In this document: positions 7,250 to 33,023 of the stretch, one piece after another | Position numbering within the stretch: position 1 is the stretch's first letter | How the letters are laid out: each line of letters begins with the position of its first letter | From: Adenophora triphylla var. japonica | Taxonomy: Eukaryota; Streptophyta; Magnoliopsida; Asterales; Campanulaceae | Reading direction: 5' to 3' | Assembly: GCA_022495995.1 (NCBI GenBank) | Contig: JAFEMH010002342.1 | Span: 248,001-312,000, forward strand | Length of the DNA stretch: 64,000 nucleotides | Program-made: the position numbers and the translations under genes | The notes under the pieces: model-generated | What the model was told of the DNA's origin: nothing | The model's input: the letters and a program-made list of their open reading frames with translations, nothing else | Databases searched by the model: none

Positions 7250-7341
7250 TGGTTTTATTCTAAAAATAACCAGTCCAGACAGAACTGTAAGCCGCACGGC
7301 TTCATTTGCTCCAGAGACCAGACCGCACGGCTTCATTTGCC
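7250..7341 (-). promoter_or_regulatory. Putative promoter of antisense gene 1 (A) with paired palindromic motif
   Basis: GCCGCACGGC at 7291-7300 and a near copy (accgcacggc) at 7322-7331, 31 bp apart, are each followed on the plus strand by TTCATTTGC. An AT-rich stretch at 7255-7270 reads AATAAAA on the minus strand and could serve as a TATA region. The geometry matches copy B (26728-26768) and the LTR promoter. The rest of 7153-7684 holds nothing else I recognise. Confidence 0.45.
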
Positions 7342-7684
7342 TGATGTGAGAAAAAAATCTGCAGCAACCAAGTTGCTGCCCAAAGGGAGTTTTCACCCCA
7401 CTTTTCCAACAAAAACCTGTGCAAAAATATATCCAAACACTAACCATGCAGTTATGTGTCATCACAAATCATTTTGGCCCAATTCCAGCCTCAATTCCAA
7501 GCAAAAAAACTGCCCCAAGGCTCGAGTAATATGCGAATTCATAAAGCATGAATTTAAAAAGCAAATAAAACATTAGTACATTGTTTTCGCCCCATCGGCG
7601 CCCAAATAAAGCAAAAAAATAAACAAGTTGTGCATAAAATTGTTCATTGTTTGTTTTTCCTCCTAAATCGATTCTAGAGACCTC

Positions 7685-10309
7685 CTAGGCCTCCGATTCT
7701 TCCTCATCACTACTCAACTCATAAAGGCTCGCCTCTCTCATCAAGTCCTCACTGTCGCTCACATCAGAAAGATGAACATTCACATGTTCATACTCTGCCA
7801 GATGCTCCAGGATGCCGGCATTGGGTCCCCGTCCCCGAGGCATGGCACTAGAGGAGTACTCTGAAGCCGATGAGGTGGATGCCGTGCCCCCTACATGCCT
7901 CCTTTTGCGCACAGGCTCCTGCACGTTCGCTGCGGCCTTTGAAGCGCAAGCCAGCTTCTTCAAAAGGGATCGGCATACATCCTTCCAGCCCCTATTCTGC
8001 CTGACCAAGCCATCGTAAGTGCGAGCTGGAACCTGAGAAAAAGAGAAGATAATCTCAGAAAAATCTCGAAATGGCAAAAAGCAAAGAAGTCTAAAAAAAA
8101 AGAGGGGAAAAGACCCTAAAGTGTACTTACAAAGGTCTTTGTCCAAGGGCAAGAGTATACTGGGGCTCCCTAGTGTCGGGGACAGGTATCCTGAACCTCC
8201 TCGGTACCCCATTGACTACATAAGAAAGATGAGCAGGAGGCATCAGCGGATCAGTAGGCTCAGCCTCCCCATACCCCTGAGTGACAGCCAGCTTCACTAG
8301 CTTCTGTGGCGTCCTCAGTCGCTGCTCCACAAAGATAGCATAAGGAGTAGCCATGTCAAAGTACTCCTCAGCTGCTACGCCTGCCTGATATCTCTCTATG
8401 TCATCCGCCGACCAATCCCGGGGCTGCAGCATCCGTGCTGGAGGATCATGGGGGGTAATGGCATCCAATAGAGGGACATGGCCATGCTGCCTAGAGAAAC
8501 GGTCCCCCAGATAGATGACATCACATGTCAACCCGGTCAACCATCGCCTCTGCCTCGTCGCCTCCACGGCCTCTCCTAGCAAAATCTCTGGATACCTCCC
8601 CCAAGGGTAAAAGTTCACTCCATCGTTCCCATCTCTGTTGATAACTGGCCCAACCATCTTGTAGTCAAAGGTGATCCGGGTCTTCCCGGTGAACTTATCC
8701 CTCGCATCTCCCCTCCAGCGGACCATAGCGGGAAAGATGGTAGCATCGCTCTGTTGGTTCCACAGAAAGAACCTGATCACCTCGTAAAACCAGACCTGCA
8801 TGTTCAAAGCATCAAAAAGGTCATTTTCTCTCATAAAAGTCTCAAAGACAGAAGGTAAAAGAAAGGAAAGAAAGTGAGACTACTTCAAGAGCAAAAGAGA
8901 AGCAATTCATCGAAGCAAATTTCTTATTCACTTTTGTACAGATCCAGGGAAAAGTAAAGCTCCGCCAAACCGGCCTCGCCCCAAGAGACCGTCCCAATCC
9001 CATCTACATCCTCCAAGGAGTCGAGAAGGCAATTCATAGCCAGCGTCCCAGAATTAGAAAAAATGGTGACTGACAACATCAACCACACAAAAGCCCTCGC
9101 AAGCTGGGAGGCAGTGACCTCATTAGCAGCAAATTTCTGCATGCAGTTCTGGACTGCCACCTCGACATTCCTAGTCTCCATCCCGAGACCCTTAGGAATA
9201 AGCTCAAACCCAACCAAAGCTCTAAACTACTCCGCCGTAATATGGTTCCTCCAGGTCACAGGCCTCCCGGTGAACTGCAGGCCAGTGTTAACAGTGAAAT
9301 CTGCAGGCGTCACTGTCAGCTCCCCCCAGCTAAGGTGAAAGCTGTGGGTAGTGTCCCACCAGAACTCCGAAAGGGCCTGGATCAAGCCCTTGCTCTTCGA
9401 GGTAATGTGAATACCTCTGCCAATAGCCTCAATAAATAAATCCAGGCCAGTAGCCCTCACTAGCTGCTTTGGGTTCACCACATCCTTCTCAAAATCGGGC
9501 ATCCTCTCCCATAGTCTCACTGCAATCTCGGAAGGCCCCCTAGACTTGTTCTCCTGTCGACAAGCACAGCAAAAGAAACGTATCAGTCCTTCACCTCATT
9601 TCAAGAGCATGCATATATTCAAAAGTGCACATGTTTTCAAAAGAAAAGCATTCAATAAAATTTTTCTAGCATCCTTTGCATGAAAAACGTGTCTTTCATC
9701 ACTTGAAACACATCATGTCAAGCACATTGCTATCCTAAGCACAAAATCACAATTTTCAAAATTATTTGCACATAAGCATTCATTTTTTCTCAAAAAATGG
9801 CATGCATGAATCCTTTTCATCATCCAAAATCCCTTTTAGCATCCATGATCAAAAATTTGACCTAGTTCTAGCACATGCAAGGACTCCGTCACATCTTAGA
9901 CAATTATTTTCCCAATTTATTTTCAAAAATGGGTCATTCTCATTATTTCTTAAGAAAATTGCACATGCATGATCATTAATCTTCTTAGCCTCATAGGTTA
10001 ATCATTAATATTTCAAAATCATCATCAAAAATCCTAGGAAAATTCGAGAAATTCCTAAAACTTGAGTCAAGCCCCATAATCAATCAAAATTCAATCAAAA
10101 TCGACGAAATTGAGCAAATTAAGAATGCTTACCCCAACCGATTGAGGATTCGTTGATTTGTGCTCCCTCCTACCCGGGTAGAGCTCCGATGGAGGCGTAA
10201 GGAAGTCATACTTCCTCTCCGTGCGGACGAGCTCTTTCCTCCTCCTCCGAGCGGCCTCCGAGATGTTTCCTCTTGCTTGCCTTGGCATAGGATTCCCCTC
10301 CGGATCCAT
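7685..10309 (-). pseudogene. Antisense gene 2 of element A: plant mobile domain (PMD) gene, broken
   Basis: This is the copy of the four-exon gene that is intact in B. Exon 1 runs from ATG 10309 to 10133 with donor GTAAGC. Exon 2 starts at 9553 and carries the PMD core (SFHLSWGELTVTPADF, then TGLQFTGRPV). Exon 3 is at about 8798-8130 and exon 4 at about 8035-7685. Exon 2 has a TAG at 9225-9227, a 12-nt in-frame insertion and a frameshift near 8940. The exon 3 donor is out of phase. Exons 3 and 4 remain close to B at protein level (KFTGKTRITFDYKMV). PMD proteins occur in plant MULE and gypsy elements and in host MAIN/MAIL genes, probably in nuclear or chromatin roles. This copy cannot make the full protein. 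Confidence 0.78.
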
Positions 10310-10425
10310 TTCAATCGGTAGAAGCAAAGGGAATTGAAGAATTTTGAAGAAATTCTCTCCCTCCTCTCTCTCTTCCTCGGCAGTAGATGGGCGGCAACAA
10401 TGCCCAATGCCCGTTCAAATCTGTT

Positions 10426-10493
10426 TTAAATAATCTGGAAAAATCAAACTTCTAGCCGTACGGCTTCTTTTGCCCCGTCTCACGCCAGGCGGC
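10426..10493 (-). promoter_or_regulatory. Putative promoter of antisense gene 2 (A) with paired motif
   Basis: GCCGTACGGC at 10455-10464 and GCCAGGCGGC at 10484-10493 are 29 bp apart and lie 146-185 bp upstream of the ATG at 10309. The TATA-like TTATTTAAAA (minus strand, 10427-10436) is about 20 bp inside the near motif, as in copy B. The assignment rests on position and repetition between copies. Confidence 0.45.
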
Positions 10494-10680
10494 CTCTTTC
10501 TCCCTGAGCAAAAATTACAGTTTTGCCCCTGGACTTCCCACTTGGACGTATAATTCCTGTTATCCTTTAACTAGGATAACGTCGTCTTCCAAAGGATATC
10601 CGTTATCTCCTAAGCAAATAGACTTTCCTCCCCAGTCGCCTCCGTTACTCCCGTTATGACGGAATGACGCTAGGTGACAC

Positions 10681-11372: not shown

Positions 11373-11709
11373 TCCAAAGGTTCAGCCACTCGACCACCTT
11401 GGTCACCTAATCCGTCTCGGCATTCGCCAGATCGGATCCTTTTCTATCGACAACCCCACTCGCCCTGCAAGTGACGTTGCCGAGGGGCTTCTGTAAGTAC
11501 CCAAATCTGGCTCATGCCTTCCGGTTAAGTTTTCCGGCAATTTCCCGGACTTTCCTAAAGTCCGGGAGCAATTCCGGAACTGTTCCGAACCTTCCGAGGA
11601 ATGAAGGGACTGATTTAAATTAAAAGGGCACGTTTTCCTTAATATGGAAAACCTTCTAGAAGTGCCACCTTGCATGATTCTAGAAACATGCTGAGTCACA
11701 CAGGATAAT

Positions 11710-11783
11710 GCCGCACGGCTGCATTAGGAGGGAACTCCTAGCCGCACGGCCTCATTAGCCTTATCCAGACTGCCTATAAATAG
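11710..11783 (+). promoter_or_regulatory. LTR promoter of A: paired motif plus TATA box
   Basis: GCCGCACGGC occurs at 11710-11719 and 11741-11750, 31 bp apart, each followed by (G/T)CATTAG-type sequence. TATAAATAG follows at 11775-11783, giving the normal sense promoter of the element. Motif-to-TATA spacing is about 25 bp. Confidence 0.7.
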
Positions 11784-12119
11784 AGCCCTCCTCTACCCAT
11801 TTTAGAAAAACAACAACATACCATATTCAGCACAAAAGCTCTGTTCAAGCCCTGCTGCGAAAATCTCAGAAGTTGAAGAGTGCCAAGAAGCCACCTCCCT
11901 CCTCCTTGAAGCCTTCCAAGTTGGTCCATCCACTAGGCAAGAATCAAAGAAGAAGAGGTCACCACCATTGGTAACCTCTCACTCCCTTACCTTGCATCAT
12001 GCATGTTTATGTGATATAATTGCTCCTTGCATTCATATATTACTATCATCTTGCTTGGAACTTGGTATTTGTTGTTAAAGATCCTATCTTTATTCATATA
12101 AATCATACCCCCTCCCCCT

Positions 12120-12520
12120 TTGCATCCTTTGCATAAAATAAGTATCCTTTGCCCATAAAAATATAATCTTTGCATTAAAGGTGCATCATTTGCACCTAAA
12201 AATCCCTTTTTTTACATAAAAATGGTATCCTTATGCATCCTTTGCATATAAAAATGTAATCTTTATATTCAAATTGCATCCTTTGCATCCTAAAACTCAT
12301 TCTCATACATAAAAATGTATCCTTTGCATTAAAGATCATTTCTTTGCATGAAAGAAGCATCCTTTGCCTAAAAATGCTATTTTCCTATAAAAAATGCATC
12401 CTTTGCATAAAAATTCTTTCTTTACATCAAAAGGCATCATTTACAAATCAAAAGCATCCTTTGCACCCAAAAATGTCATCTTTTCACTAAAAATGTCATT
12501 TTTACATGCATTCCCCCATG
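12120..12520 (+). repeat. Degenerate TGCATCCTTTGCAT array inside LTR
   Basis: GCATCCTTTGCATAAAAAT-like units of about 20-30 bp repeat irregularly through the transcribed half of the LTR. The same array is in the B LTRs at about 14395-14800 and 31930-32340. No coding potential was seen. Confidence 0.6.
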
Positions 12521-13268
12521 TCCCCATTAGCAACCTTCGGAACGGACCGGTGTAAAGATCCTATCTTTACATCGTTCCTTCCATTAAAGGTGCCAAAATC
12601 TCTTTAGAAAGGGATAAACCTTAAACCTATATCTCCGATTTTCGCTTGAGACGAGCATGATAGCTCCCATATAAGCTCAATCGTCTCAAAGCTTAGGATT
12701 GATGGGCTAAGGACGCTCCTTTTCTAAAGAACCCCATTTTGGACTATAAAAGAGAGTCCTTCTCTCGATCACGCAAAGACCCAAGGTCAAATAGCGATGA
12801 TCACAAGTCCAAGATGAGGACGGGATCAAAGTCCCGAACACATAAAAAATCCAAGGAATCCCGAGCGACAACCAACTAAATGGTTTGTACGTCCGGAAGA
12901 CGACTTGGGACATTCCCCCCCCCCTCTTTTCAACACATGCACACAAGAAAGCACGTAAGCAAGCACGAAAAATGGAATCTAGGGAGACTTGCTACGGCAA
13001 GGCACCTTGGGTGAACGACGATCCGTTCTTCCCAAGGGGTAACTTAACCTCTGAACCCTAAAATCCTTTTTTTCAAAGTTTTGAGGAAATCAAAATGGTG
13101 TGGCGACTTCGTTTTTCAAATTAAACCGGATGTTTTCAAACTCGCGTGAATCCGATCTAAAAACAAAAATTTAGAATTTGGGCACACATTCACAATTATG
13201 TAAGGAGGGATCGTCCAGCGGCCAACAACTGAGCTGGAAACAACGACCCTCCCGAGAGGCAGCCGAGG

Positions 13269-13759
13269 ATGGTCTTAGTCATTTCTGAGGAGATGAGCAA
13301 GAACCAAATCAAGAGTTCTATCTACCACCTGAAGAAAGCTCCCCATGTTCCTCAAAAGTCTGAGGTTCCAAATGATGTGATCAGTTTTTACCCATACGAG
13401 TTGTCGTCCAGTCCTTTAGCCCGTCAGCAGACATTGATCGTCCCTGGCTTCATTGACAATTGTGAATCAAGAAGGATATTGATTGATACCGGGGCAGCCA
13501 AAGATATTTTGTTCTACAACGTCTATCAGAAGATGGGTCTACCTGATAGTCGCCTAAGTCCCTACTTAGGTCATCTTGAAGGATTCACCAATCATAGGGT
13601 AGACGCCAAGGGACAGATTGATTTGCCCGTTGATCTCGGGGATCATCCTTTGAGGACCATTCGAACGGTTACTTTCGTTGTAATTGATGTTATAAGTGAC
13701 TATCATGCAATACTCGGCCAACCAGGCCAAGCAGCTCTAGGGATCGTCGCGTCCGTCCC
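13269..13759 (+). pseudogene. Element C aspartic protease, split by insertion of B
   Basis: The retropepsin active site LIDTGAAKDI (DTGA at residues 73-76) and the ILGQPG motif near residue 153 are visible. The frame is cut after VASV by the 5' LTR of B. At 33024 the same frame carries on into an IKFPT segment, the usual downstream part of this domain, before a stop near 33137. The function would be polyprotein cleavage. The gene is disrupted. Confidence 0.8.
13755..13759 (+). repeat. Target site duplication of element B (GTCCC), left copy
   Basis: GTCCC directly precedes TGTAAG of the 5' LTR, and the same five bases follow the 3' LTR at 33024-33028. Five bases is the normal size for gypsy integrases. 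Confidence 0.9.
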
Positions 13760-15471
13760 TGTAAGTACCCAAATCTGGCTCATGCCTTCCGGTTAAATTT
13801 CCCGGCAATTTCGGTAAGTTTTCCGGTAATTCCCCGGACCTTCCTAGTGTTCCGGAAATATTCCGGAACAGTCCCAAATTAATTAAAGGCTGAAGAGGAG
13901 CCTTCCTAATTAAGAAACACGTTTTTCTTAATTAGGAAGAACCTTCTAGAATTTTCCACCTTGCATGGTTCTAGAAATGCTGAGTCACAATGGATAATGC
14001 CGCACGGCTGTATTAGCTCGAGGTCCCTAGCCGCACGACCTCATTGGCGATTTCCAGACTGCCTATAAATAGAGCCCTCCTCTACCCATTTCAACACACA
14101 CAATTGACACAACAAAATCAACTCACAAAATCATAATACTCCCAAGAGGCTGTTGAAGATCCAAGAAGGTGAAGAAGAAGGCCAAGAAGCTCCCTCCCTC
14201 CTCCTTAAAGATCCAAGATCAACCTCTCCTCCTAGCTCCATCCAAAGAAGAAGGAAGCCATTGGTAACCTCGCACGCCCTAACCTCGCATCCTAATTGCT
14301 TTATAAATTGCTCATTGCATTGTCTTTATATTGCTTGGGACTTGGTAGATTAAAGATCACATCTTTATATTCCCCCTTCCCCTTTTGCATGCATTAGACA
14401 TCATTTGTCATAAAAATGTAGTCTTTCCCCATAAAGGTGCATCCTTTTCACCTAAAACCCCCATTTTTCCAATAAAAATGTCATCTTTATGCATCCTTTG
14501 CATATAAAAATCAAATCTTTTCAATCAAAATGCATCATTTGCATTCAAAATCCCTTTTCCAAGCATCATTTGCTTTAAAGACCATGTCTTTACCATAAAT
14601 TATCATCATAATGCTTTTTAAAAATGCAATCTTTATGCATCATTTGCATAATGAATGCCAAGTTCTTCATAAAAATGCATCATTTGCATAAAAACCATAT
14701 CTTTATGCATCATTTGCAATAAAGATCATTCCTTTGAATCAAGTGCATCATTTGCAACCCAAAAATGTCATCTTTTCATTAAAGTGTCATTTTTACATAC
14801 ATTCCCCCCATTCCCCCATTAGCAACCTAGGAACGGACCGGTGTAAAAGATCCTATCTTTACATCGTTCCTTCCATAAAGGTTTCATAATCTCTTTAGAA
14901 AGGGACACCTTCGAACCCTATATCTCTGATCATCACTTAAGATGAGTATGAAGCATCTATACAAGCTCGACCATCTTAAGGTGTAGGATTGATGGGCTAA
15001 GGACCCTCCTTTTCTAAAGAACCTCATCTTTAACTACAAAGAGAGTCATTCTCTCGATCACGCAAGTCCCAAGGTCTAAAAAATGCGATGATCACAAGTC
15101 TAAGATGAGGGCGGGATCATAATCCCGAATACATAAAATCCAAGAAATCCAGAGCGACAACCAACAAATGGTTCGTACGTCCGAAAGACGACTTGGGACA
15201 TTCCCTCCTTATTTTCAAACACATGCACACAAGAAAGCACGCAAGCAAGCACGATTAATGAAATCATGGGAGACTTGCTCCGGCAAGGCACCTTGGGTGA
15301 ACGACGATCCGTTCTTCCCAAGGGGTAACTTAACCTTCGAACCCATAAAACCTTTTTTTCAAAGTTTTGAGGTAATCAAAATGGCGTGGCGACTCCGTTT
15401 TTCAAAATAAACCGGATGTCTTCAAACTCGCGTGAATCCAACAAACACAAAAATTTGGGCACACATTCACA
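13760..15471 (+). repeat. 5' LTR of element B (1712 bp)
   Basis: Runs from TGTAAGTACC to CATTCACA. It is the same length as the 3' LTR (31312-33023), with about 18 substitutions and no indel noticed. It contains the paired motif, the TATA box and the TGCAT array. Confidence 0.93.
13999..14072 (+). promoter_or_regulatory. LTR promoter of B: paired motif plus TATA box
   Basis: GCCGCACGGC at 13999 and GCCGCACGAC at 14030, 31 bp apart, are followed by TATAAATAG at 14064-14072. The 3' LTR has GCCGCACGAC at 31551 and GCCGCACGGC at 31582, so each LTR has one mutated copy, but a different one. Confidence 0.7.
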
Positions 15472-15474
15472 GTT

Positions 15475-15493
15475 TGGCGACTCTGCTGGGGAC
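15475..15493 (+). other. Primer-binding site of element B
   Basis: TGGCGACTCTGCTGGGGAC begins three bases after the LTR end. TGG at the start fits a tRNA 3' CCA end, and this sequence type is what I recall from Ogre/Tat elements, described as tRNA-Arg-like. I could not match it to a specific tRNA here. Confidence 0.7.
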
Positions 15494-16830
15494 ATCCCAA
15501 AGGAGAAAAGCTTTTATTTTCAAAACAAAAAAATCGATACTCGGTATATAGGTGGAAACCACTTGCCTTTCCTGTACACTCTCTGACGTGGGAGTTGGGA
15601 TAACCGGTGGTTTAACAATCCCACGTACCGGTATCACTTTTTCGAAAAAAATAGAAGGAAAGCTTTTCCCTTTGAGCGGGTTAGACTCCCGTCGCCGATT
15701 CCATTAATCATGCTTGCTTTCTTTACCATGCATTGCATCATTTGCATCTTGGAATCTGTGCATACTTTGAACGGGAAACAACCCGAAAAATAGCAAAAGG
15801 AGTGGAACCTGGAAAATTGATCCATGCAGTCGTACGACTCAATCCTCATTAGATTTTGACCGGGCAACCTCAGTGGCAATTCCACCAGGAAAAATCATGG
15901 TTAATCTGGCAGTCCTAGCAGCTTGGGGCTACTCAGCTCCATGGCCGATTTGGGGCTCCCAGAAAATTTACGTGCTTATGTGTTGCATTCTCCCCGTCCC
16001 GAAAATCATTCCTTTAAAACACATTTATGAAAATCTCTGTTTTAACTCAAAAAGGAACATTTTTAGGAGACCGCACACTACGCGCACTTGATATATCCTG
16101 TACACTTTTGCACGCACGTCCTTCAAACCCGAGGGTGGTTCCAGCTGCAGTCACGGACAGCCTTACGATGCTCCCGGGCGCGCACGGAATCATCCCAACC
16201 TCCCCATGGCGGCCAGTGTTGACCAATGCACGATCCCGTGTCACACGTTTCAAAAAACCGTGACTTTTTGGTTGGTTTTTGGTCTAGTCCGTGTCATATA
16301 GCCCAGTTGCATACCCTCGTAAAGGTCAAGCCTTAGTTCATAACGGAAGAAGAACTCTGCCAAAATTCCGACAAGGAAAAATTGGCGAGATCTCAACTCC
16401 GACATTGACTATTGACCTTGACCTGCACGGAATGCGTAAGAGTCAAGACCGAGTCTTTGCCAACAAATCAAAAGATCTTTCGCTCAAGCGAAGCTCTGCT
16501 AAAATTCCGACAAGGAAAAATTGGCAAGATCTTGACCCGGCATTGACTTCAATTCTAACTCACGCCCGACGTATGCAACAAAGTTCAATGTGAAACTGTG
16601 TCATCCAGCTTTTACCGCCCGACCCATGCCTATTATATTCTCGGACATTACCGAAAGTCAAAACGTCAATCGCTCAAGCGAAATTCTGCCAAAATTCTAT
16701 CAAGGCAGAAAGACGAGACTTTCCCGGTATTGCCTTGACTATAATCCGCATCGATCGTGCGTTGAAAGTTCCTATGACCCGCTAGACCCGTTAGGAGCGT
16801 TCTTTACTCTCGGTCGGTGGGATCCGCGTG
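15494..16830 (+). other. Leader of element B with a three-fold imperfect repeat
   Basis: No convincing frame is present. Imperfect repeats start at about 16352, 16493 and 16681 and share CTCTGCCAAAATTC, CAAGGAAAAATTGG and CGCTCAAGCGAA. Long leaders are usual in this lineage. The segment could carry packaging or dimerisation signals, but nothing here proves that. Confidence 0.5.
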
Positions 16831-17113
16831 CCCTATAGGACCCTCGCCCGGGGCTGTCCACCCTGGGAGGTCGAAATACAGGTGGAATACGAGGGGCTTA
16901 TAGACGTAGTGACGGAACCCACTGATCCAGGATCTAGAGTAGTTACGAAAAAGAAGGGCAAACCCCCTTTTCCAACCAAATAGATATTAATAAAAGACAC
17001 TGTTTTAAGTAAACTGGAAGATTCTAATTTGCATATTGCCCGAGCCTTCAGCCTAAACACCTACCCCGAGTCTAAACCTTTCCTATCCCTTTCCCGCGGC
17101 GAGAAAGAAGTGG

Positions 17114-17949
17114 GTGAGAACACCGGGTCGCCGACTTGTTAGCGCAAAATTCTCGGAAGTTCGCGAGAATCCTCGCTTGCGGCTTTTCGGTGTCAAAATG
17201 GCCAACATGGTAGTCAACAATGGTAATGACCAAGTAGTCGGAGAGGCCATCCCGATTCAGCCCAAGCCTCACATATGGTATGATGTATGCGATCGTGAGG
17301 ACCTGCCCTGAGTATGAGTACTAAGAATGGATCAATGAAGACGCTCCTTCGAGAAAGAAGAAGAAGAGAAAGTCCACACAACAGAAGCTAAAAGAAAGGT
17401 ATGAAGCCGGAGACAAGAGCGTCGGAACTCTAGGGGAGCCTTATGGCAAGTTCGATTACTATGTCAGCTATGCCAAACAGCCCGCCAAGGAACCCATCAT
17501 TCAAAGCACAAATTCCCCTGATACCCCCATGTACAATGATCCTCTTGAAGCGTAAAGTGCTGAATTTGTGGCCATCGTAAAGTTCAATGAGAAGCTAGCA
17601 GATCTAGAAGCGTAATACGTAAAGCATATTGAATACGTAGCCGGTCAAGGAAGAATTAAGATCCTCTCAAGAAGACTTCATCAAAGCATTATCCAGGCCA
17701 ACCTCCCCGTTGGCTACACCGACAAGGTCGTGGTGTCCAAGATCGAAAAGAGAAAATGAATTATCGGCGGTGCATTGATAAGATGAGCCGAGACTCTTCA
17801 GTCAATGAGCCCAGTTGTCACGGACGAGCTCACTGAGAGATTGCATCAAGCTACTCTAGCTCCCTCACTATCTTTCCACGGTACCGGCCTGTCAACGATT
17901 TCCGGCAAGTTTTTGATCAATTTGAAGTCTCCAACTTTCTGAAGAACGC
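17114..17949 (+). pseudogene. Element B gag-like remnant
   Basis: A frame from 17114 reads through a FGVKMANMVVNNGNDQVV segment to PHIWYDVCDREDLP and stops at 17309. Further sense text (GEPYGKFDYYVSYAKQPAKE, then FNEKLADLEA) is broken by at least four stops up to the hAT insertion at 17950. Position after the leader and before pol suggests gag, but no zinc knuckle or capsid motif is clear. After the hAT element the sequence jumps to the part equivalent to A 1445, so the protease was deleted. Confidence 0.5.
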
Positions 17950-22122: not shown

Positions 22123-23014
22123 TGACAAGACTGCTACTCCCTAGGGCAACAGCAAGAAGGAGTGAGATCCCGGTCCAACCTTTGTCAAGCCACCCTCGAG
22201 TCAATAAGTAGTGTAGGGTCCAGAGTCAGTAGCGTCTGTTCAGTTGAGTCAGGAATCTTTGAAGTCCAGTCCTCTGAGTCATCCGAAGGCCTCACGCCCG
22301 AGGACTATCAAAATGTAATCGATGTCATCTTTCCCCTTATTTTGAATGAAATGACAGATCCTTGAGTATCCTCTTATTGCCAACTTAACAAATGATAAAT
22401 TAACTCAAAACTTAACAACAAGCTTAATAATGAATCATTTGAACACGATGCAAACACACTAAATGAACAATACATTAAAGAAATCTTTAAGCGGTGTTTC
22501 AAAAAGAGGAAAACCGGGCCCAAGCCTGCCGAGGAGGTTTTTGACAAGTGTGAACTTGGTGCGTCGAGGAACCTAAAGAGACACAGATCGGAAACTTCTT
22601 CCGGGGGTTGAACGGGACGACCGATCGACCGCTCGGGGAATACGTCGACGTGTTTGCATGGTCATACAGGGATATGCCGGGGCTAGACAGTTCGATAGTA
22701 GAGCACAGTAATCCCTCTAGCACCGCATGCTAAGCCAAAAAAGCGACCGAGGAAGATCAAGCCGAGAATGGTCTCTACAGTCAAAGAAGAAATTGAGAAG
22801 CTACGCGGGTAGGATTCATCAGAGTCATCGAATATCCGACATGGTTGTCCAATATTGTGACCGTCACCAAGGCCAATGGGAAGGTGCGCTGCTGTGTGGA
22901 TTTCCGAGATCTGAACAAGGCCAGCCCCAAGGACGATTACCCTTTGCCAAACATAGACATCCTGGTGGACTCCACTGCCAACTACGAAGTCAAATCCTTC
23001 GTTGATGGCTTTGC
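22123..23014 (+). pseudogene. Element B pol linker and RT N-terminus, frameshifted
   Basis: Continues element B after hAT-1. From about 22237 the sequence matches A from about 1445 (ESGIFEVQSSESSEG, then LTPEDY). The protease and G-patch region is missing. RT text follows in several frames with stops, including KHRHPG and NYEVKSF equivalents near 22990. Confidence 0.7.
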
Positions 23015-24598
23015 ATGATACAACCAGATCAAGATGGCCGAGGAAGACAAGGAAAAGACAGCCTTCACCACGCCGTGATGCCATTTGGGCTTAAGAACGC
23101 CGAGGCTACTTACCAAAGGGCAGCGACCGCGCTTTTTCATGACATGATCCACAAGGAGATTGAGGTCTACGTAGACGACATGATAATCCATTCCAAAGGC
23201 GAGGACGGGCAGCACTTTGTTGACCTGCGAAAGTTCTTTGAGAGGCTGAGACAACATTCCATGAGACTAAACCCTACTAAATGCACCTTCGGAGTGACAA
23301 GGGGAAAAGTGCTTGGGTATATGGTCACGGAGCAAGGTATCGAAGTTGACCCCCAAAAGATCAAAGCCATTATGGATATGAGGCCACCTCAAACCCAGAC
23401 AGAAGCCAAGAGCTTGCAAGCCCTGAAAAGGTTGGCCTCCCATTATGTCATTCTAGGAGGCAACCTATACAAGAAGCGATACCAGGGACCACTCCTCCTG
23501 TGCGTCACTCAAGAAAAGGCCAAAGAGTTGATGACCGAAGTCCACAATGGTCCCTGCGGTCCTCATATGAATGCCAGAGCCCTGATGCAAGTGATCCTTA
23601 GAATGGGTTACTACTGGATTTCCATGGAAACAGACTGTGTCCAGCACGTCCGAGCATGCGACAAGTGCCAGCGGTTTGCCAACCTCAACCATCTCCCGCC
23701 TCATGACCTGTACTGCATGACGACTCCTTGGCCGTTTGCAACTTGGGGTATTGACGTGATAGGGAAAATAGCCCCGGCAGGAAGCAATGGACATGAATTT
23801 GTGCTAGTAGCCATCGACTACTTCACCAAGTGGGTAGAGGCCAAGTCTTACAAGGTCATCACTTCCAGAAAAGTGGCCCAATTCATCAAAGAAAACATAA
23901 TGTGCAGATATGGGGTGCCCAACGAGATCATTTCCGATAATGGGTCGCACTTTGAAGGGGACTGCGATAGGTTCTTTGTCGAATTAGAATCACTCGCCAC
24001 AAGTCGTCTCCGTACAGACCTCAGACTAATGGAGCCGTGGAAGCTGCTAATAAGACGCTCGAACGGATCATCCGGAAAATGTCCACCCGTGGTCGTGATT
24101 GGCCCGAAAAGATGCACTTGGCACTCTGGGGCTACAAAACATCTGTCAGAACAGCTACAGGAGAAACTCCTTTTGCCTTAACCTACGGGATGGAAGCAGT
24201 GCTACCAGTGGAGTTGGAAATCCCGTCATTAAGGGTCCTCCTGGAAAAGTGTGTCAATGAAGTAGAATGGTTGTGCGGTAGGCATGTTGAGTTAGCCCGC
24301 TTGACGAGAGAAGGCTAAAAGCCATGGAACACACCCGAGCCTACCAGAGGCGGATGGCCGCAGCGTTTGATAAAAAGGTCAAGGCCGGAGACATCAAAGA
24401 GGGTGACTTAGTGTTGAAAGTGAAGCCCCTACCCAGAGACAACCCCCTAGGAAAATGGGAACCCGTTTGGATCGGCCCTTATGTGGTGCGTAAGATACTA
24501 TCGGGAGGAGCCATGAAGCTTGCGGACTGGACGGCAATCCCTTTGTCCACCCAGTCAACGGTGATAAGCTCAAAAGATACTACGTCTAAAAGAAAAAG
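23015..24598 (+). pseudogene. Element B RT palm fused directly to integrase, RNase H deleted
   Basis: A 388-aa frame holds MPFGLKNAEATYQRA and YVDDMIIHSK from RT, reaches RPPQTQTEAKSLQALKRLA, and continues straight into the integrase zinc domain (HNGPCGPHMNARALM, CDKCQRF) and core (IDVIGKIAPAGS, SDNGSHFEGDC). In A these two parts are separated by about 1.2 kb that encode RT thumb and both RNase H regions. The core then shifts frame near 24000, and the C-terminal part runs 24037-24318 and 24324-24598 in other frames. The fused protein would lack RNase H and is interrupted. Confidence 0.85.
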
Positions 24599-24720
24599 AA
24601 AAAAAAATATAAATAAAAAAAAGTGCAAAAAGAGTAATGCCCAGCTAGGCTGAAAACCCTAAAAAGGGCGGTCTAGGCAAAAAACAGGGCTGCACATAAA
24701 AAAAATTAGTTCACCAGAAT

Positions 24721-24777
24721 GAACTACGAAGACCTGAGCCCCTTAGTCTTTCTTGTAAAAGGGGAATGTAGGCAGCC
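24721..24777 (+). other. Conserved CTACG...TGTAG stem-loop motif, B1
   Basis: Equivalent of A1 at 5284. The outer right arm has changed to TGTAG, which still pairs as G-U in RNA, and the inner CCCCTT/AAGGGG stem is kept. The flanking 24600-25090 is AT-rich and non-coding. Confidence 0.45.
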
Positions 24778-25092
24778 ATATATGGTTCGGTCTAAACAAT
24801 AAAAAGGACAATCAAGCTTCCATGAAGTGCATCCTAAATAATAAAGGGTATTTCAGTTTTCATAAAACGGGTCCCAATAAATAAGACATTTGAATTTCCA
24901 TGAAATGTGTCTCAATTAATTTTTAAGATAATATTTCTTGTTCATTACAAGTTAAAAACTTCTTGATGAGTTCAAGCACGGTCTACCTCTTGACTCTGCT
25001 AACCTGCTACAAAGATCTAAAATACAATAAAATGCCTAAATAAACTAATGTGTTTGCAAAATGGCAATAAGGGAATCCTAAGAAAAGATCTG

Positions 25093-26589
25093 TCAGTCGT
25101 CATTCGCTGAGTCTTCTTTGGTCTTTTTCCCTTTTCCTCGGCCTCGTCGAGTCTTCTTCCTCTTTTTATCTATGATGTCGGTATCCCTCATCCCGACCTC
25201 CGGTATCCTCACTGGAGCCTCCACCAAACCTGTGTCAATAAGTGCTCTCTCTACCCGAGCACGAGTCCGCACCTCCTCCCTCTGAACCTCAGTCAAAGGA
25301 GCGACCTCGAACAACCTCTTGTACCGAGCCTCCATGTCTCTGACCAAGTCACCTGACTGGTTATGGCGACTCGCCTTAGCTTCAGTCTCCCTCAGAGTCC
25401 TACTCGAGTCACAGTCAGCCCCAATAAAGCCCGACGTCTCTCCTCCAAGATGACCTGAGTCGCTCCCATCTCCCTGTCGTACCAGTCCAAGTAGACAGTG
25501 GTCAAGATGGTGCTCTTCCTGCTCCTGAAGATAGCCCTGGGTGGGAAAGTAGCATATGTCCAAGCCCTCGAGAAGAAAGAGAAGCTGGCTGGATCCCTCA
25601 TGTCCAATGACACCACCTCCATGGTCCGGATGTCCTCCCAATCACTCAATGGCTCCTGTAAAGCCCCAAACTGCTGGATACTAAGCGGGGTATGTAGAAG
25701 GATGACCGGCGAGAATCACGGAACCCTCACAAGATAGGACTCCTGAAATATCCTCCCGGTGCAACCTCCAATGAGGAATCCACCAACGGATGTCCGAAGT
25801 GGATAGCCTAGCCATCATCGGATCCCAGCTACTCTGGTCCTTTTGCCTCGGTGCACCCCCCCGAGAAATCACCCAAGGGCACTGAGTCGGTAAAGCCCCT
25901 GGCAAAGCCCCGAGCCTCTCCTGCGGCCATAAGGTCGGCCACGGACTCCCGGATCTCATGAAGTGGTCTCCCCGAGCCATCCTGTCAATCCCATGAAGTG
26001 TCTCTCCCAAAACCAGCGGGACAATATCCTTCCCAGCCTTGCAGTCTCTAACCATGTCCAAGAGACCACTATGACAGATCCCCACGGACTCAGCAGTGAA
26101 CAAAGCAGAGAATACACAAAGGATAAATGCGTCCATAGCCACCGTGGTCGCAGCCATATCCGGAGACCCAAACCTGCCCGGGATATCAGAAAGGTCAATC
26201 CTGTCCGGGGCTACCATCATCCTCTCAGCCTCCCCCAAAGGAATCTGCAGAAAAGATGCAAGCTTTACCGCCACCGGCACGTCTCCGATCAGCGGAATAG
26301 ATATAGCCTCAATCTCGGGACCCCCAATCAAGGCTCGGAAGTCTTCATGCGTCGGGACAATCTCGTTATAAGAAAAGCAGTAAACATGTCTCCGGACGTC
26401 CCAGAACTTTGCTGCGGCTCTCAAAAGGTCCCAATCGGGCGGGAGATCCCTCAAATGCCATAAAGACTTGATCTTGAAGGAAGAATCAAGCAGTCCCCTA
26501 TGAGATTGGAAGTTGTGTCTCACCCAAGATTCAAGATCGGACAGAAAACGGTCTCGTTTCCCCCTTTGCAATCTAACGGGCTTCTCCAT
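25093..26589 (-). pseudogene. Antisense gene 1 of element B: DUF7745-like gene with two frameshifts
   Basis: Same gene as 5662-7152. It begins MEKPVRLQRGKRD at ATG 26589 and is open to about 25765. There a short loss relative to A (where A encodes LQTRRTFQ) changes frame. Coding resumes (WEDIRTMEVVSLDMRDPASF) and breaks again near 25420, where a C run is one base shorter than in A. The tail to 25093 is preserved, including the basic KKRKKTRRGRGKGKK segment. No internal stop lies in the main body, so decay is recent. Confidence 0.8.
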
Positions 26590-26689
26590 TGCAAAATGAT
26601 CAAAGGTGGTGCTTTTAGGTCCAAAATGTGCTCTGGGAACAATTGGGACAAGTCTAAGTTGAAAATGAAATGAAATGGCCAAGCCTTGC

Positions 26690-26768
26690 TTTTATTCAGA
26701 AAATAACCAGTTCAGACAGAACTGTGAGCCGCACGGCTTTATTTGCCCTCTGGACAAAACCGCACGGC
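26690..26768 (-). promoter_or_regulatory. Putative promoter of antisense gene 1 (B) with paired motif
   Basis: GCCGCACGGC at 26728-26737 and ACCGCACGGC at 26759-26768 are 31 bp apart and start 139 bp upstream of ATG 26589, exactly as in A. An AATAAAA-type AT-rich element on the minus strand is at about 26690-26705. Confidence 0.45.
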
Positions 26769-27117
26769 TACATTAGCCATCTGCAGAAAAAATTCTGCAG
26801 CAACCAAGTTGCTGCCCAAGGGAGTTTTCACCCCACTTTTTCAACCAAAACCTGTACAAAAACATGTCCAAAAGCCATTCAAGCATTTATACACCATTAT
26901 AAATCATTTTGGCCCAGTTTCAGCCCCGATTCCAAGCAAAAAATCGCCCCAAGGCTCAGATAATATGCAAATTTAAAAAGCATAAATTAGAAAAGCAAAT
27001 AAAACATAAGTACAATGTCTTCGCCCCATCGGCGCCAGAATAAAGCAAAAAATAAACAAAGTGTGCATAAAAATTGTTCATTGTTTGTTTTTGTTCCAAA
27101 TCTACTCTAGAGACCTC

Positions 27118-29723
27118 CTAGGCCTCCGATTCTTCTTCTTCTTCATCACTGCTCAGCTCGTAAATGCTAGCCTCCCTCATCAAGTCCTCCTGGTCGCTCA
27201 CGTCAGACAAATGGACATTATCGTGCCCGTACTCAGCCAGCTGCTCCAGAATGTCAGCGTTGGGTCCCCGCCCCCGAGGCATGGCACTGGAAGAGTACTC
27301 CGAGGCCGATGAGGTAGACGCTGTGCCCCCGACATGCCGTCTCTTGCGCCCGGGCTCCTGTGCATCCGCTGCTGCCTTTGAAGCGCAGGCCAGCTTCCTC
27401 AGAAGGGACCGGCACATGTCCTTCCAGCCCCTATTCTGCCTGACCAATCTGTCATAAGTACGAGCTGGAACCTGAGAAAAGAAGAGAAAAATCTCAGAAA
27501 AATCTCAGAAAATCTCAAATTTGCAAAAAAGCAAAGAAAGCTGAAAAGGGAAAGACCCTAAAAGTATACTTACAGTGCTGTCAGGCGGCAAGGTGTACTG
27601 GGGCTCCCTAGCGTCGGGGACAGGTATCCTCATCCTCCTCGGTACTCCATGGACCACGTAGGACAGATGCGCAGGAGGGATCGGCGGGTCAGTAGGCTCA
27701 TCCTCCCCATACCCCTGAGTGACCGCCAGCTTCACTAGCTTCTGTGGCGTCCTCAGGCGCTGCTCCACAAACACAGCGTAGGGGGTGTCCATGTCGAAAT
27801 ACTCCTCTGCAGCCACGCCTGCCTGGTACCTAGCAATCTCGTCCTCTGGCCAATCCCTGGGCTGTAGCATCCGTGCTGGAGGATCGTGGGGAGTAATGGC
27901 GTCCAGTGGAGGGACATGGCCATGCTGCCTCGAGAAACGGTCCCCCAAGTAAATGACATCACATGTCAGCCCAGTAAGCCATCTCCTCTGCCTAGTCGCC
28001 TCAATGGCATCTCCCAGCAAGATCTCCGGATACCTGCCCCAAGGGTAGAAGTCCACTCCGTCGTGCCCATCCCTGTTGATGACCGGCCTCACCATTTTGT
28101 AGTCGAAAGTGATCCGGGTCTTCCCCGTGAATTTATCCCTCGCATCTCCCCTCCAGCGAACCATAGCAGGGAAGATGGTGATATCACTCTGCTGGTTCCA
28201 AGGGAAGAACCCGATCACCTCACAAAACCAGGCCTGCATGTTCAAAACATCAAAAAGGTCATTCTCTCTCTCATAAAAGTCTTAAGACAGAAAAGAGAAA
28301 AGAGAAAAGAAAGAGAGACTACCTCAAGGGCAAATGAGAAGCAGTCCATGGAAGCAGCCTTGTTCCGGCTGTACATGTCCAGAGAGAAATAGAGCTCCGC
28401 TAATCCGGCCTCTCCCCAAGAGACCGTCCCTATCCCATCCACATCCTCCAGAGAGTCGAGGAGGCAAGTCATGTCCAGTGTCCCATAATTAGCAAAAATG
28501 GTGACCGACAACATCAACCACACGAAAGCTCTAGCCAGCTGCTGGGCAGTCACATCATTAGCAGCAAAGTTCTGGACTGCCACCTCGACATTCCGCGTCT
28601 CCATACCCAGCCCCTTGGGAATCAACTCAAACCCAACCAAATTCTGAAATTCCTCAGCTGTAATGTGATCTCTCCAAGTCACGGGCCTCCCGGTGAACTG
28701 TAGGCCAGTAATAGCTGTGAAATCGGCAGGAGTCACTGTCAGCTCTCCCCAGCTCAGGTGAAAGCTATGGGTACTGTCCCACCAGAACTCAGAAAGGGCC
28801 TGGATCAAGCCCTTGCTCTTAGAGGTGATGTGAACACCCCTGCCGATAGCCTCGACGAACGAATCCAGGCCGGTAGCCCTCACCAAACCCTTGGGGTTCA
28901 CCCCATTCTTCTCGAAATCCGGCATCCTCTGCCAAAGCTTGACTGCAATCTCTGATGGTCCTCTAGACTTGTTCTCCTGTAGACAAGCACAACAAAAAGA
29001 AGTGTGTCAGTCCTTCATCATTTTCAAAGGCATGCATATATTCACAAAAGTGCACATATTTTCAAAAGAAAAGCATTCAAAAAAAAAAGTTTTTCTAGCA
29101 TCATTTGCATCAAAAAAAGCGTCTTTCATCACTTGAAACGCGTCATGTCAAGTCCCATTGCTTTCCTAAAGCACAAAATCACAATTTTCACAATTCTTTG
29201 CACATAAGCATTATTCTTTCAAAAATGGCATGCATGAATCCTTTTCATCTTCCAAAATCATGTTTTCTCAAAATTTTGACCTAGTTCTAGCACATGCAAG
29301 AACTCCGTCTCACTTTAGACAATTATCATTCTTACTTTATTTGCGAGAAAAAGTGGGTCATTCTCACTATTTTTGTCAAACAAATTGCACATTGCATATT
29401 CTTAGCCTCATAGGTTATTCATCAATGTCTCAAAATCATTCAAAAATCCTAGGAAAATCCTAGAAAATTCCTAAGTTCGGGTCAAGCCCTAAGTCATTCA
29501 AAATTCAATCAAAATCGACGGAATTGAGCCAAATAAGAATGCTTACCCCAACCGGACGCGGGTTCGTCGATTTGTGCTCTCTTCTCCCCGGGTAAAGCTC
29601 CGACGGAGGCGTAAGAAAGTCATACTTTCTTTCCGTTCGCACGAGCTCCTTTCTCCTCCTCCGAGCGGCCGCCGAGATGTTTCTTCTTGCTTGCCTCGGT
29701 ATAGGATTGCCCTCCGGATCCAT
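27118..29723 (-). CDS. Antisense gene 2 of element B: intact four-exon plant mobile domain (PMD) protein, about 614 aa
   Basis: Exons are 29723-29547 (177 nt), 28976-28323 (654), 28233-27574 (660) and 27471-27118 (354 with stop TAG). All exon lengths are multiples of three, so every junction is phase 0. Introns start GTAAGC, GTAGTC and GTAAGT and end in CAG. Exon 2 holds the PMD core (SFHLSWGELTVTPADF, TGLQFTGRPV). Exon 3 is a conserved domain I cannot name (KFTGKTRITFDYKMV, YLGDRFSRQHGHVP). Exon 4 has a basic GRKRRH segment and an acidic tail rich in S, D and E, suggesting a nuclear protein. The start is the ATG shared with A. PMD is known from plant transposons and MAIN/MAIL proteins; its role here is unknown. 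It is the only multi-exon frame in the element without breaks. Confidence 0.8.
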
Positions 29724-29834
29724 CTCAAATCAAAGGGAAGCAAGGGGATTGAAAGAATTTCGAAATTCTCTTCCTCTCTTCTCTCTCTGCGTTCTTGGGC
29801 GGCAACACAATGCCAATGGCCCGTTCAAATCTGA

Positions 29835-29904
29835 TTTTAAATAATCTGGAAAAAACAGGCTTCTAGCCGTACGGCTCCTTTTTCTCCATCTCATGCCGGG
29901 CGGC
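29835..29904 (-). promoter_or_regulatory. Putative promoter of antisense gene 2 (B) with paired motif and TATA-like box
   Basis: The TATA-like TTATTTAAAA (minus strand, 29835-29844) lies 112-121 bp before ATG 29723. GCCGTACGGC at 29866-29875 and GCCGGGCGGC at 29895-29904, 29 bp apart, follow outward. The spacing equals that of copy A. Confidence 0.5.
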
Positions 29905-30127
29905 CTCATTCGCTCTGAGCAGAAAATTACAATCCTGCCCCTGGACCTTCCACTTGGGCATGCAATTTCCGTTATCTTTTAACCAAGATAACATATTTTT
30001 CAGAAGATATCCCTTATCTCTTAAGCAATTAAGCTTTCTTCCCAGTCGCCTCCGTTAATTCCGTTATAACGGGATAATGCTAGGTGACAACCTCCGAATT
30101 GTCAAAACTCTAAACTGAGCTTACCTC

Positions 30128-30324
30128 TATCCCGGATAGCGACGTATGCTAAGTTCTCTTAACTAAAGCTACCTCTATCCCGAATAGTGACGTATGCTCA
30201 AGTTCCTCTCAACTTAAGCTACCTCTATCCCGGATAGTGACGTATGCTCGAGTTCTTCTTAACTTAAGATACCTCTATCACGAATAGCGAAGTATACTTA
30301 AGTTCTTCTAGCTTTAGCTACCTC
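30128..30324 (+). repeat. 48-50 bp tandem repeat, four units
   Basis: CTATCCCGGATAG-type palindromic cores recur with TAT starts at 30128, 30176, 30226 and 30276. They are the counterpart of the exact 49-bp array of A (10681-10876), more diverged. Confidence 0.7.
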
Positions 30325-30754
30325 TATCTCTGTCAAAAGGAGATAGCGCCGTAAGCTTTAGTCTTCGTTATTTCCGTCATAAAGAAATAACGCCATCTAG
30401 CTTTAGCTACCTCTATCTCTGTCAAAAAGAGATAGCGCCGTAAGCTTTAGTCTTCGTTATTTCCGTCATAAAGAAATAACGCCATCTAGCTTTAGCTACC
30501 TCTATCTCTGTCAAAAAGAGATAGCGCCGTAAGCTTTAGTCTTCGTTATTTCCGTCATAAAGAAATAACGCCTTCTAGCTTTAGCTACCTCTATCTCTGT
30601 CAAAAAGAAATAGCGCCGTAAGCTTTAGTCTTCGTTATTTCCGTCATAAAGAAATAACGCCATCTAGCTTTAGCTATCTCTATCTCTGTCAAAAAGAGAT
30701 AGCGCCGTAAGCTCTAGTCTTCGTTATTTCCGTCATAAAGAAATAACGTCATCC
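30310..30754 (+). repeat. 89-bp tandem repeat, five units, two hairpins per unit
   Basis: AGCTTTAGCTACCTCTATC starts at 30310, 30399, 30488, 30577 and 30666, with a sixth partial unit at 30755. Each unit contains TATCTCT/AGAGATA and CGTTATTTC/GAAATAACG inverted arms with 7-9 base loops. Copy A has no such array, so it was amplified in B. No spacers or leader are present, so it is not CRISPR-like. Confidence 0.9.
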
Positions 30755-30878
30755 AGCTTTAGTTACCTCTATCTTCTCGATAGTGACGTAAGCTCTAGTT
30801 TTCTCAGGTGACAACCTCCATTAATTGTCAAAACCCTCAAGGATCCTAGACATCGTTCCTAACTATCTAGTGATGCTC

Positions 30879-30924
30879 GAACTACGATCAAGGCTTGATT
30901 CCTCCGAGATACGTAGGTAGCCTT
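30879..30924 (+). other. Conserved CTACG...CGTAG stem-loop motif, B2
   Basis: Equivalent of A2: GAACTACG, AAGGCTTGATTCC, ACGTAGG, TAGCCTT. Confidence 0.5.
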
Positions 30925-31145
30925 TTGTAAAAGGTCCAGCCATCCGACCACTTTGGTCATCCTTTTCCTCCGTCACTCCTCAGTGATGAAGTAGTCTCTC
31001 ATAAGAGACTTTGTTATCCGACCACCTCGGTCACTTCTAGCATATCCCCAGTAGGATCAATTGCTTGACCTCCTAGGTCATTTTCTCTTCTATTTCCCCA
31101 GCAAGAGACCAGTTTCTCTTCTCCATTCCCCAGCGGATCTATTCC

Positions 31146-31190
31146 GAACTACGGCCTGGCTTGATTCCTCTGGGATACGTAGGTAGCCTT
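31146..31190 (+). other. Conserved CTACG...CGTAG stem-loop motif, B3
   Basis: Equivalent of A3, lying 122 bp before the 3' LTR. GAGGGGCTTC at 31301-31310 is a weak polypurine-tract candidate. Confidence 0.5.
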
Positions 31191-31311
31191 TCATAAGAGG
31201 TTCAGCCACTCGACCACCTCGGTCTCCCAATCCGTCTCGGCATTCGCCAGATCGGATCCTTTTCTATCGACAACCCCACTCACCTTGCAAGTGACGTTAC
31301 CGAGGGGCTTC

Positions 31312-33023
31312 TGTAAGTACCCAAATCTGGCTCATGCCTTCCGGTTAAATTTCCCGGCAATTTCGGTAAGTTTTCTGGTAATTCCCCGGACCTTCCTAGT
31401 GTTCCGGAAATATTCCGGAACAGTCCCAAATTAATTAAAGGCTGAAGAGGAGCCTTTCTAATTAAGAAACACGTTTTTCTTAATTAGGAAGAACCTTCTA
31501 GAATTTGCCACCTTGCATGGTTCTAGAAATGCTGAGTCACAATGGATAATGCCGCACGACTGCATTAGCTCGAGGTCCCTAGCCGCACGGCCTCATTGGC
31601 GATTTCCAGACTGCCTATAAATAGAGCCCTCCTCTACCCATTTCAACACACACAATTGACACAACAAAATCAACTCACAAAATCATAATACTCCCAAGAG
31701 GCTGTTGAAGATCCAAGAAGGTGAAGAAGAAGGCCAAGAAGCTCCCTCCCTCCTCCTTGAAGATCCAAGATCAACCTCTCCTCCTAGCTCCATCCAAAGA
31801 AGAAGGAAGCCATTGGTAACCTCGCACGCCCTAACCTCGCATCCTAATTGCTTTATAAATTGCTCATTGCATTGTCTTTATATTGCTTGGGACTTGGTAG
31901 ATTAAAGATCACATCTTTATATTCCCCCTTCCCCTTTTGCATGCATTAGACATCATTTGTCATAAAAATGTAGTCTTTCCCCATAAAGGTGCATCCTTTG
32001 CACCTAAAATCCCCATTTTTCCAATAAAAATGTCATCTTTATGCATCCTTTGCATATAAAAATCAAATCTTTTCAATCAAAATGCATCATTTGCATTCAA
32101 AATCCCTTTTCCAAGCATCATTTGCTTTAAAGACCATGTCTTTACCATAAATTATCATCATAATGCTTTTTCAAAATGCAATCTTTATGCATCATTTGCA
32201 TAATGAATGCCAAGTTCTTCATAAAAATGCATCATTTGCATAAAAACCATATCTTTATGCATCATTTGCAATAAAGATCATTCCTTTGAATCAAGTGCAT
32301 CATTTGCAACCCAAAAATGTCATCTTTTCATTAAAGTGTCATTTTTACATACATTCCCCCCATTCCCCCATTAGCAACCTAGGAACGGACCGGTGTAAAA
32401 GATCATATCTTTACATCGTTCCTTCCATAAAGGTTTCATAATCTCTTTAGAAAGGGACACCTTCGAACCCTATATCTCCGATCATCACTTAAGATGAGTA
32501 TGAAGCATCTATACAAGCTCGACCATCTTAAGGTGTAGGATTGATGGGCTAAGGACCCTCCTTTTCTAAAGAACCTCATCTTTGACTACAAAGAGAGTCA
32601 TTCTCTCGATCACGCAAGTCCCAAGGTCTAAAAAATGCGATGATCACAAGTCTAAGATGAGGGCGGGATCATAATCCCGAATACATAAAATCCAAGAAAT
32701 CCCGAGCGACAACCAACAAATGGTTCGTACGTCCGGAAGACGACTTGGGACATTCCCTCCTTATTTTCAAACACATGCACACAAGAAAGCACGCAAGCAA
32801 GCACGATTAATGAAATCATGGGAGACTTGCTCCGGCAAGGCACCTTGGGTGAACGACGATCCGTTCTTTCCAAGGGGTAACTTAACCTCCGAACCCATAA
32901 AACCTTTTTTTCAAAGTTTTGAGGTAATCAAAATGGCGTGGCGACTCCGTTTTTCAAATTAAACCGGATGTCTTCAAACTCGCGTGAATCCAACAAACAC
33001 AAAAATTTGGGCACACATTCACA
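31312..33023 (+). repeat. 3' LTR of element B (1712 bp)
   Basis: Same length and ends as the 5' LTR. TATAAATAG is at about 31616. It is followed directly by GTCCC (33024-33028), the right target duplication, and then by element C. Confidence 0.93.

Follow-up and report, generated by a model that had tools for sequence, protein, structure and literature searches.

The window, that is, the whole 64,000-nt stretch of contig JAFEMH010002342.1 of Adenophora triphylla var. japonica to which all coordinates refer, contains two related retrotransposons with long terminal repeats (LTRs), elements A and B, in which a paired palindromic motif recurs next to sense and antisense promoters. Element B is a complete insertion (13760-33023): its 1.7-kb LTRs are 98.95% alike to each other and it is bordered by the target duplication GTCCC (13755-13759 and 33024-33028). 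Element A is cut by the left edge of the window, its 3' LTR lying at approximately 11492-13194. A Pfam scan of A and B gave RVT_1, RVT_3, Integrase_H2C2 and rve, the rve and RNase_H matches being below the cut-offs; the pol domains (reverse transcriptase (RT), RNase H of the RVT_3 type and integrase) are gypsy-like and, together with the LTRs and the target duplication, identify the elements as Ty3/gypsy type. We take the RVT_3 RNase H and the Arg-type primer site TTTGGCGACTCTGCTGGGGAC (15473-15493) to be suggestive of the Ogre/Tat type.

Two antisense genes are located between pol and the 3' LTR: one codes for a DUF7745 protein (PF24924), the other for a plant mobile domain (PMD) protein (PF10536). 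The antisense open reading frames (ORFs) of A and B that were scanned corresponded to DUF7745, to PMD or to no match, and Transposase_28 (PF04195) was not among them; an antisense Transposase_28 ORF is present in the neighbouring Retand-like element, within which B has apparently inserted.

The seven pairs which a first-pass annotation of this DNA had placed in A and B were all found at the same coordinates (Table 1). The core GCCGNNCGGC was exact in nine of these 14 sites and carried one mismatch in the other five. The window contained nine exact cores against 0.21 expected (maximum of two in 100 shuffles) and 24 cores with at most one mismatch against 5.39 expected. Start-to-start spacings were 31, 29 and 31 bp in A and 31, 29, 31 and 31 bp in B. 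The distances agreed as well: the near core, said to start 139-146 bp before the ATG of both antisense genes, was found 139 bp before it at the two DUF7745 genes, and 146 bp (A) and 143 bp (B) before it at the PMD genes, while the LTR pair, for which about 25 bp had been given, ends 24 bp before the TATA box TATAAATAG. The same cis element is present, as had been proposed, at the sense LTR promoter and at both antisense promoters, and in all three it adjoins a TATA box or, at the DUF7745 promoter, a box that is TATA-like only. The two LTRs of B differ by two G-to-A changes within the motif (13999/31551 and 14030/31582), both from CG to CA, as expected if sites are lost in inserted copies through deamination of methylated CpG.

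Table 1. Coordinates of the genes, LTRs, paired sites and promoter boxes of elements A and B in the window.
Feature	Position	Strand	Details
A antisense DUF7745 gene	5662..7152	-	intact 496-aa ORF; PF24924, 31.6 bits (cut-off 26)
A DUF7745 TATA-like box, weak candidate	7263..7270	-	AAAATAAC on +; 20 bp from pair
A DUF7745 antisense promoter pair	7291..7340	+	units GCCGCACGGCTTCATTTGC / ACCGCACGGCTTCATTTGC, 31 bp apart; core at 7322 ACCGCACGGC
A antisense PMD gene	8127..10309	-	PF10536; ATG 10309; several ORF pieces, putative exons
A PMD TATA box	10425..10433	-	TTATTTAAA on -; 21 bp from pair
A PMD antisense promoter pair	10455..10502	+	GCCGTACGGC / GCCAGGCGGC (second core at 10484), 29 bp apart
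A 3' LTR pair	11710..11759	+	GCCGCACGGC / GCCGCACGGC, 31 bp apart
A LTR TATA box	11775..11783	+	TATAAATAG; 24 bp past pair
B 5' LTR	13760..15471	+	pair 13999/14030; TATA 14064-14072
B 5' LTR pair	13999..14048	+	second core (14030) GCCGCACGAC
B leader pair	15806..15891	+	15829/15859, GTCGTACGAC / ACCGGGCAAC; decayed copy of 86-nt hairpin
B antisense DUF7745 gene	25681..26589	-	shortened ORF; 24.6 bits, slightly below cut-off 26
B DUF7745 antisense promoter pair	26728..26777	+	31 bp apart; core at 26759 ACCGCACGGC; TATA-like box 26700-26707
B antisense PMD gene	27508..29723	-	PMD match; ATG 29723; putative exons
B PMD antisense promoter pair	29866..29913	+	GCCGTACGGC / GCCGGGCGGC, 29 bp apart; TATA box 29836-29844
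B 3' LTR	31312..33023	+	98.95% alike to B 5' LTR
B 3' LTR pair	31551..31600	+	first core (31551) GCCGCACGAC; TATA 31616-31624

The conserved unit was found to be longer than the core, approximately 19 bp (GCCGNRCGGCTTCATTNGC), and asymmetric. In the site groups, drawn from the window and from loci numbered no higher than L030, the extension of the unit lay on the element's + side in 120/120 half-sites of LTR, DUF7745 and PMD promoters, and in 132/132 when L001-L004 and L010, which repeat later loci, were counted. Because the extension is on the + side in all these promoters, the orientation of the unit relative to transcription is opposite in the LTR and in the antisense promoters. The suggestion of the first-pass annotation that a palindromic core works in both orientations was therefore not borne out for the full unit. 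With the repeated loci removed, the near core lay 24 bp from the box in 23/25 LTRs, 21 bp in 16/17 PMD promoters and 17-23 bp in 17/18 DUF7745 promoters. Rows had been sorted into groups by their box (PMD), by TGAGTCA or the TATA box (LTR) and by nearby motifs (DUF7745), so the figures describe the distance and direction of the sites and are no measure of their presence.

Presence of the pair was assessed on genes picked by their protein. A first look gave 70,411 DUF7745 candidates of the main family in the genome, 86 of which were scored; 20 were chosen by hand, some high and some low among these 86 listed rows, the motif being disregarded. All 20 carried the upstream pair, 19 at 31 bp and one at 30 bp, so that the conservation in other family members on which the first-pass annotation depended was found. 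None of these pairs was exact in both halves, the second half beginning with ACCG or TCCG.

Conservation within the pair was analyzed in 18 copies, namely A, B and 16 loci found through their PMD pair. L019 (DUF7745 region) and L016 (LTR) could not be aligned, leaving 17 of the 18 copies at each promoter; the PMD rows, having been selected by the PMD pair, give no evidence for conservation at PMD. The CpGs of the motif were kept in 100% of the aligned copies at the DUF7745 promoter and the LTR, while other CpG positions (those present in more than one fifth of the copies) were kept on average at 0.50 (DUF7745, n=11) and 0.69 (LTR, n=11). Fixed core columns scored 0.95 (DUF7745) and 0.93 (LTR) against 0.70 and 0.48 for the spacer, the length of which hardly varied (starts 30 or 31 bp apart, except for 42 bp in L025). 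Between A and B, 58/60 core bases were identical (P 0.0015 when compared with six random noncoding windows) and 11/11 motif CpGs were kept, compared with 146/221 CpGs elsewhere. The motif was thus retained at the LTR and the DUF7745 promoter although its spacer diverges there; at the PMD promoter the spacer is likewise conserved (0.93).

Searches of the 2.48-Gb assembly for exact pairs yielded 12,060 at start spacings of 25-35 (15-25 bp between cores), against 2 for the reversed pattern, and 581 at spacings of 36-65 (26-55 bp between cores), against 17 for the control; per spacing, this amounts to approximately 1,100 and 19 pairs, respectively. As the second halves of the sampled DUF7745 pairs begin with ACCG or TCCG, the count of 12,060 is an underestimate. 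Among the 50 pairs listed out of the 12,060, context rules placed 46 (19 in LTRs, 15 at PMD, nine at DUF7745 and three in leaders); the other four (two LTR, two PMD) had altered TATA boxes and were assigned by eye. All 50 were within promoter or leader contexts and none elsewhere. At spacings of 36-65, 45 of the 50 listed places corresponded to a different repeat, made of GCCGATCGGC pairs.

This other repeat (L086, L087, L088 and the places at spacings 36-65) has ATTGG/CCAAT between its halves and lies approximately 140 bp before a Gly-rich ORF. The three GCCGATCGGC loci showed no detectable similarity to window ORFs, or to other loci over 1 kb, and two Gly-rich ORFs beside GCCGATCGGC pairs gave no Pfam match.

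A cousin family carries a different palindrome at the same places. Loci L045, L043 and L044 form a single cousin element, with proteins 29% (DUF7745), 35% (PMD) and 73% (integrase) identical to those of A or B. Palindromes of the TCTCGNNCGAGA type, paired 19-20 bp apart, were found in its LTR, in its 5' region (two pairs), at its DUF7745 promoter and at its PMD promoter, and the sole GCCG pair in it (L043 2027/2057) is that of a main-family LTR which has entered the cousin pol region. Genome-wide, exact TCTCGNNCGAGA pairs numbered 6,132 against 0 for the control. A first look gave 31,246 cousin DUF7745 candidates, of which 150 were listed; in 20 promoters likewise chosen by hand, high and low among these rows, the TCTCG pair was present at 19 bp in 20/20 (halves with at most two mismatches) and the GCCG core in 0/20, while the TCTCG pair was found in 0/20 of the main-family DUF7745 promoters. 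The palindromes of both families have the centre CGNNCG in common.

From these sequence comparisons we propose, with a probability slightly better than even (about 0.52), that the pairs are lineage-specific operators for one DNA-binding protein, most likely made by the element, which would couple its sense and antisense promoters. Each operator would consist of two directional 19-bp sites approximately three helical turns apart (29-31 bp); operators would adjoin the TATA boxes of the LTR, antisense DUF7745 and antisense PMD promoters, with an extra pair in the 5' leader. A single sequence-specific protein reading all pairs, for which PMD and DUF7745 are the candidates, could then link transcription of both strands, its effect being possibly activation, repression or prevention of silencing. 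Of the two sources considered in the first-pass annotation, host or element, the latter is the more probable for the binding protein, because the corresponding positions of the cousin hold another palindrome, changed in step at separate sites. Another explanation is that the pairs are sites of host transcription factors, two related factors of different specificity being used by the two families. We consider this rather unlikely, since all the listed exact pairs fell in promoters or leaders of this family (four of them by eye) and since the palindrome differs between the families at the LTR, the leader and both antisense promoters alike.

The leader pair, which is additional to the sites of the first-pass annotation, is located approximately 350-400 bp past the primer-binding site. 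Intact copies in L005, L007 and L008 make up both arms of an 85-86-nt hairpin, with folding energies of -41.7 to -42.5 kcal/mol and z-scores of -5.7, -6.0 and -7.1; in a 10-sequence alignment, 5 of the 27 pairs of the stem were altered on both sides. Both halves are usually changed in the B-like subfamily (GTCGTACGGC / ACCGGGCGAC), with partial compensation (z -3.5 in L037), and in B itself the hairpin is lost (z -0.23). The extension of the leader half-sites (n=14) was on the + side in nine, on the - side in four, and tied in one. A relative, L009, looks internally deleted, its leader being joined to PMD exon 1 and the PMD promoter region.

The leader hairpins raise the possibility that the pairs act as RNA elements, as hairpins of the genomic RNA used in packaging or dimerisation, and that the promoters contain them incidentally. 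The covarying stem and the common direction of all promoter units in the genomic RNA are consistent with this, as are two DUF7745 copies that fold well (L021, -35.5, and L023, -33.8 kcal/mol, given without z-scores). A covarying stem was found in the leader only, however, and no stable stem in the promoter pairs: one copy each from an LTR, a DUF7745 and a PMD promoter was given a z-score, and all three folded modestly (z -1.2 to -1.4). Where the first base of one half has changed (ACCG, TCCG), its partner shows no compensating change, the TATA distances are left unexplained, and B lacks a leader hairpin of its own. We consider an RNA function of the pairs as a whole improbable, and for the promoter pairs we reject it on the basis of the z-scores and the uncompensated changes.

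Descent alone could also produce the likeness, if a piece of leader or LTR had been copied to the antisense promoters and the sites there were duplicated remnants. The leader and the PMD promoter both have CTGGAAAA 12 bp before the first core, which speaks for such copying. We nevertheless regard this origin as very improbable: the CpG-rich cores are kept in full while decay affects other CpGs and the spacers of the LTR and DUF7745 pairs, and the sites of the cousin carry other letters at the same places.

Several observations weigh against the proposal of operators read by an element-made protein, and part of them speak for a host factor. Repeated host-factor sites are usual in LTRs, and Copia-like LTRs in the window (39846-40777 and 45416-46623) have CG-centred palindromes as well, CTCGGCCGAG, several of them 22 bp apart. 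A relative (L005/L039) with no RT, PMD or DUF7745 match inside keeps both the LTR pair and the leader hairpin; its LTR pair is compatible with help in trans, and also with a host factor. Pfam gave no DNA-binding domain in PMD or DUF7745, and a single-sequence AlphaFold model was unusable (pLDDT, the predicted local distance difference test score, of 36). The leader RNA hairpin is not explained by a pure DNA operator. When all positions of the promoter alignments were ranked, the core template came only 35/401 (DUF7745) and 34/409 (LTR), because other promoter blocks are also conserved, and the PMD spacer (0.93) is almost as conserved as the cores. PMD rows grouped by having a box support its distance and not its presence, and two PMD loci with altered boxes, L022 and L026, are outside the count of TATA distances. 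For the cousin, the PMD and LTR pairs were seen in a single element and have a degenerate half apiece, and the box distances are long at DUF7745 (56 bp) and at the LTR (153 bp), the PMD site being 16 bp from a weak box.

Cousin DUF7745 weakly matched PMD (E 0.006 and 0.003), below the cut-offs, and one of the six PMD or DUF7745 pieces scanned, a cousin PMD, had a sub-threshold match to DUF1985 (PF09331, 16.3 bits, E 0.0096, cut-off 35.1). A search for DUF7745 protein homologues and a search of viral contigs yielded nothing useful, and a literature search retrieved no papers under 'DUF7745' and nothing on such paired sites.

VANDALs are DNA transposons and the element studied here is an LTR element. 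By analogy, the sequence-specific anti-silencing of Arabidopsis VANDAL/VANC nonetheless appears to be the closest system. According to the available text of two reports (PMC5735166, Hosaka 2017; PMC10398659, EMBO Rep 2023), VANC is a transposon protein with a DUF1985 domain; it binds short motifs particular to a family and relieves silencing. As described there for VANC, a short family-specific motif is present here in non-coding regions of the element, and related families with related proteins have different motifs. In the same text, VANC motifs are often tandem repeats, and binding and methylation loss were shown for them, whereas the sites in A and B are paired palindromes known from their sequence.

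Because the cousin PMD weakly matches DUF1985, a VANC domain, a VANC-like role is the boldest reading left, and we advance it tentatively. The antisense-encoded PMD and/or DUF7745, perhaps distant kin of VANC, might bind the family-specific paired operator in the LTR, leader and antisense promoters and protect expression of the family from silencing. Operator and protein would co-evolve, and related families, each with tens of thousands of first-look DUF7745 candidates in the genome, would run separate, non-crossing codes on the CGNNCG centre.

Antisense extra ORFs (aORFs) have been described in plant Ty3/gypsy elements, in Retand with TRP28 (Vicient 2025, PMC11963269) and in Grande and RIRE2 (PMC7264820). 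In the portions of these papers at hand, a regulatory or DNA-binding role is proposed for TRP28 (PMC11963269), the antisense genes of plant LTR retrotransposons are said to have no known function (PMC7264820, PMC11963269), and no promoter motif common with the LTR is described for aORF elements (PMC11963269, PMC7264820). The elements studied here resemble those described there in that their antisense genes follow pol and precede the 3' LTR, and differ from Retand/TRP28, Grande and RIRE2 in that these genes are DUF7745 and PMD.

A further likeness is with MAIN/MAIL1, PMD proteins which the accessible text of PMC7156037 and PMC9899485 ties to the expression of genes with a common promoter motif, DOWN. 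DOWN was considered as the same motif and rejected: its form printed there for MORC1, CATGCAGTTT, is unlike either palindrome.

If PMD or DUF7745 binds the pair of its own family and not that of the cousin, LTR elements would have a private regulator comparable to VANC, and the plant mobile domain could gain a molecular function. A promoter code shared by the members of one family, with another complete set in its relative, offers a direct and cheap test of the role of the antisense genes.

Other palindromes were seen near LTR promoters. In a third LTR (L042) the dyad AGTCCGTCCGGACT stands 18 bp upstream of the TATA box, a single case. An element inserted at the cousin loci, with LTRs 99.4% alike (L043 7093-8488, L044 3620-5015), holds GTCGCACGAC in its LTR at L043 7598 and 7633, 35 bp apart. 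Upstream of the LTR pair (window approximately 11640-11705, 13940-13990 and 31490-31545), A and B share GCTGAGTCA and two TTCTAGAA palindromes, which we take to be heat-shock-element-like.

Additional features were found inside the two elements. An ORF for a hAT transposase (Dimer_Tnp_hAT and hAT-like RNase H) occupies 18844-20457; as it is located within B, it probably marks a nested DNA transposon. The aspartic protease ORF of A (3-1223) also contains a G-patch domain (PF01585, 42.3 bits). In B, the interval from the PMD promoter to the 3' LTR contains tandem repeats of 89 bp (30216-30863), and other repeats occupy this position in A.

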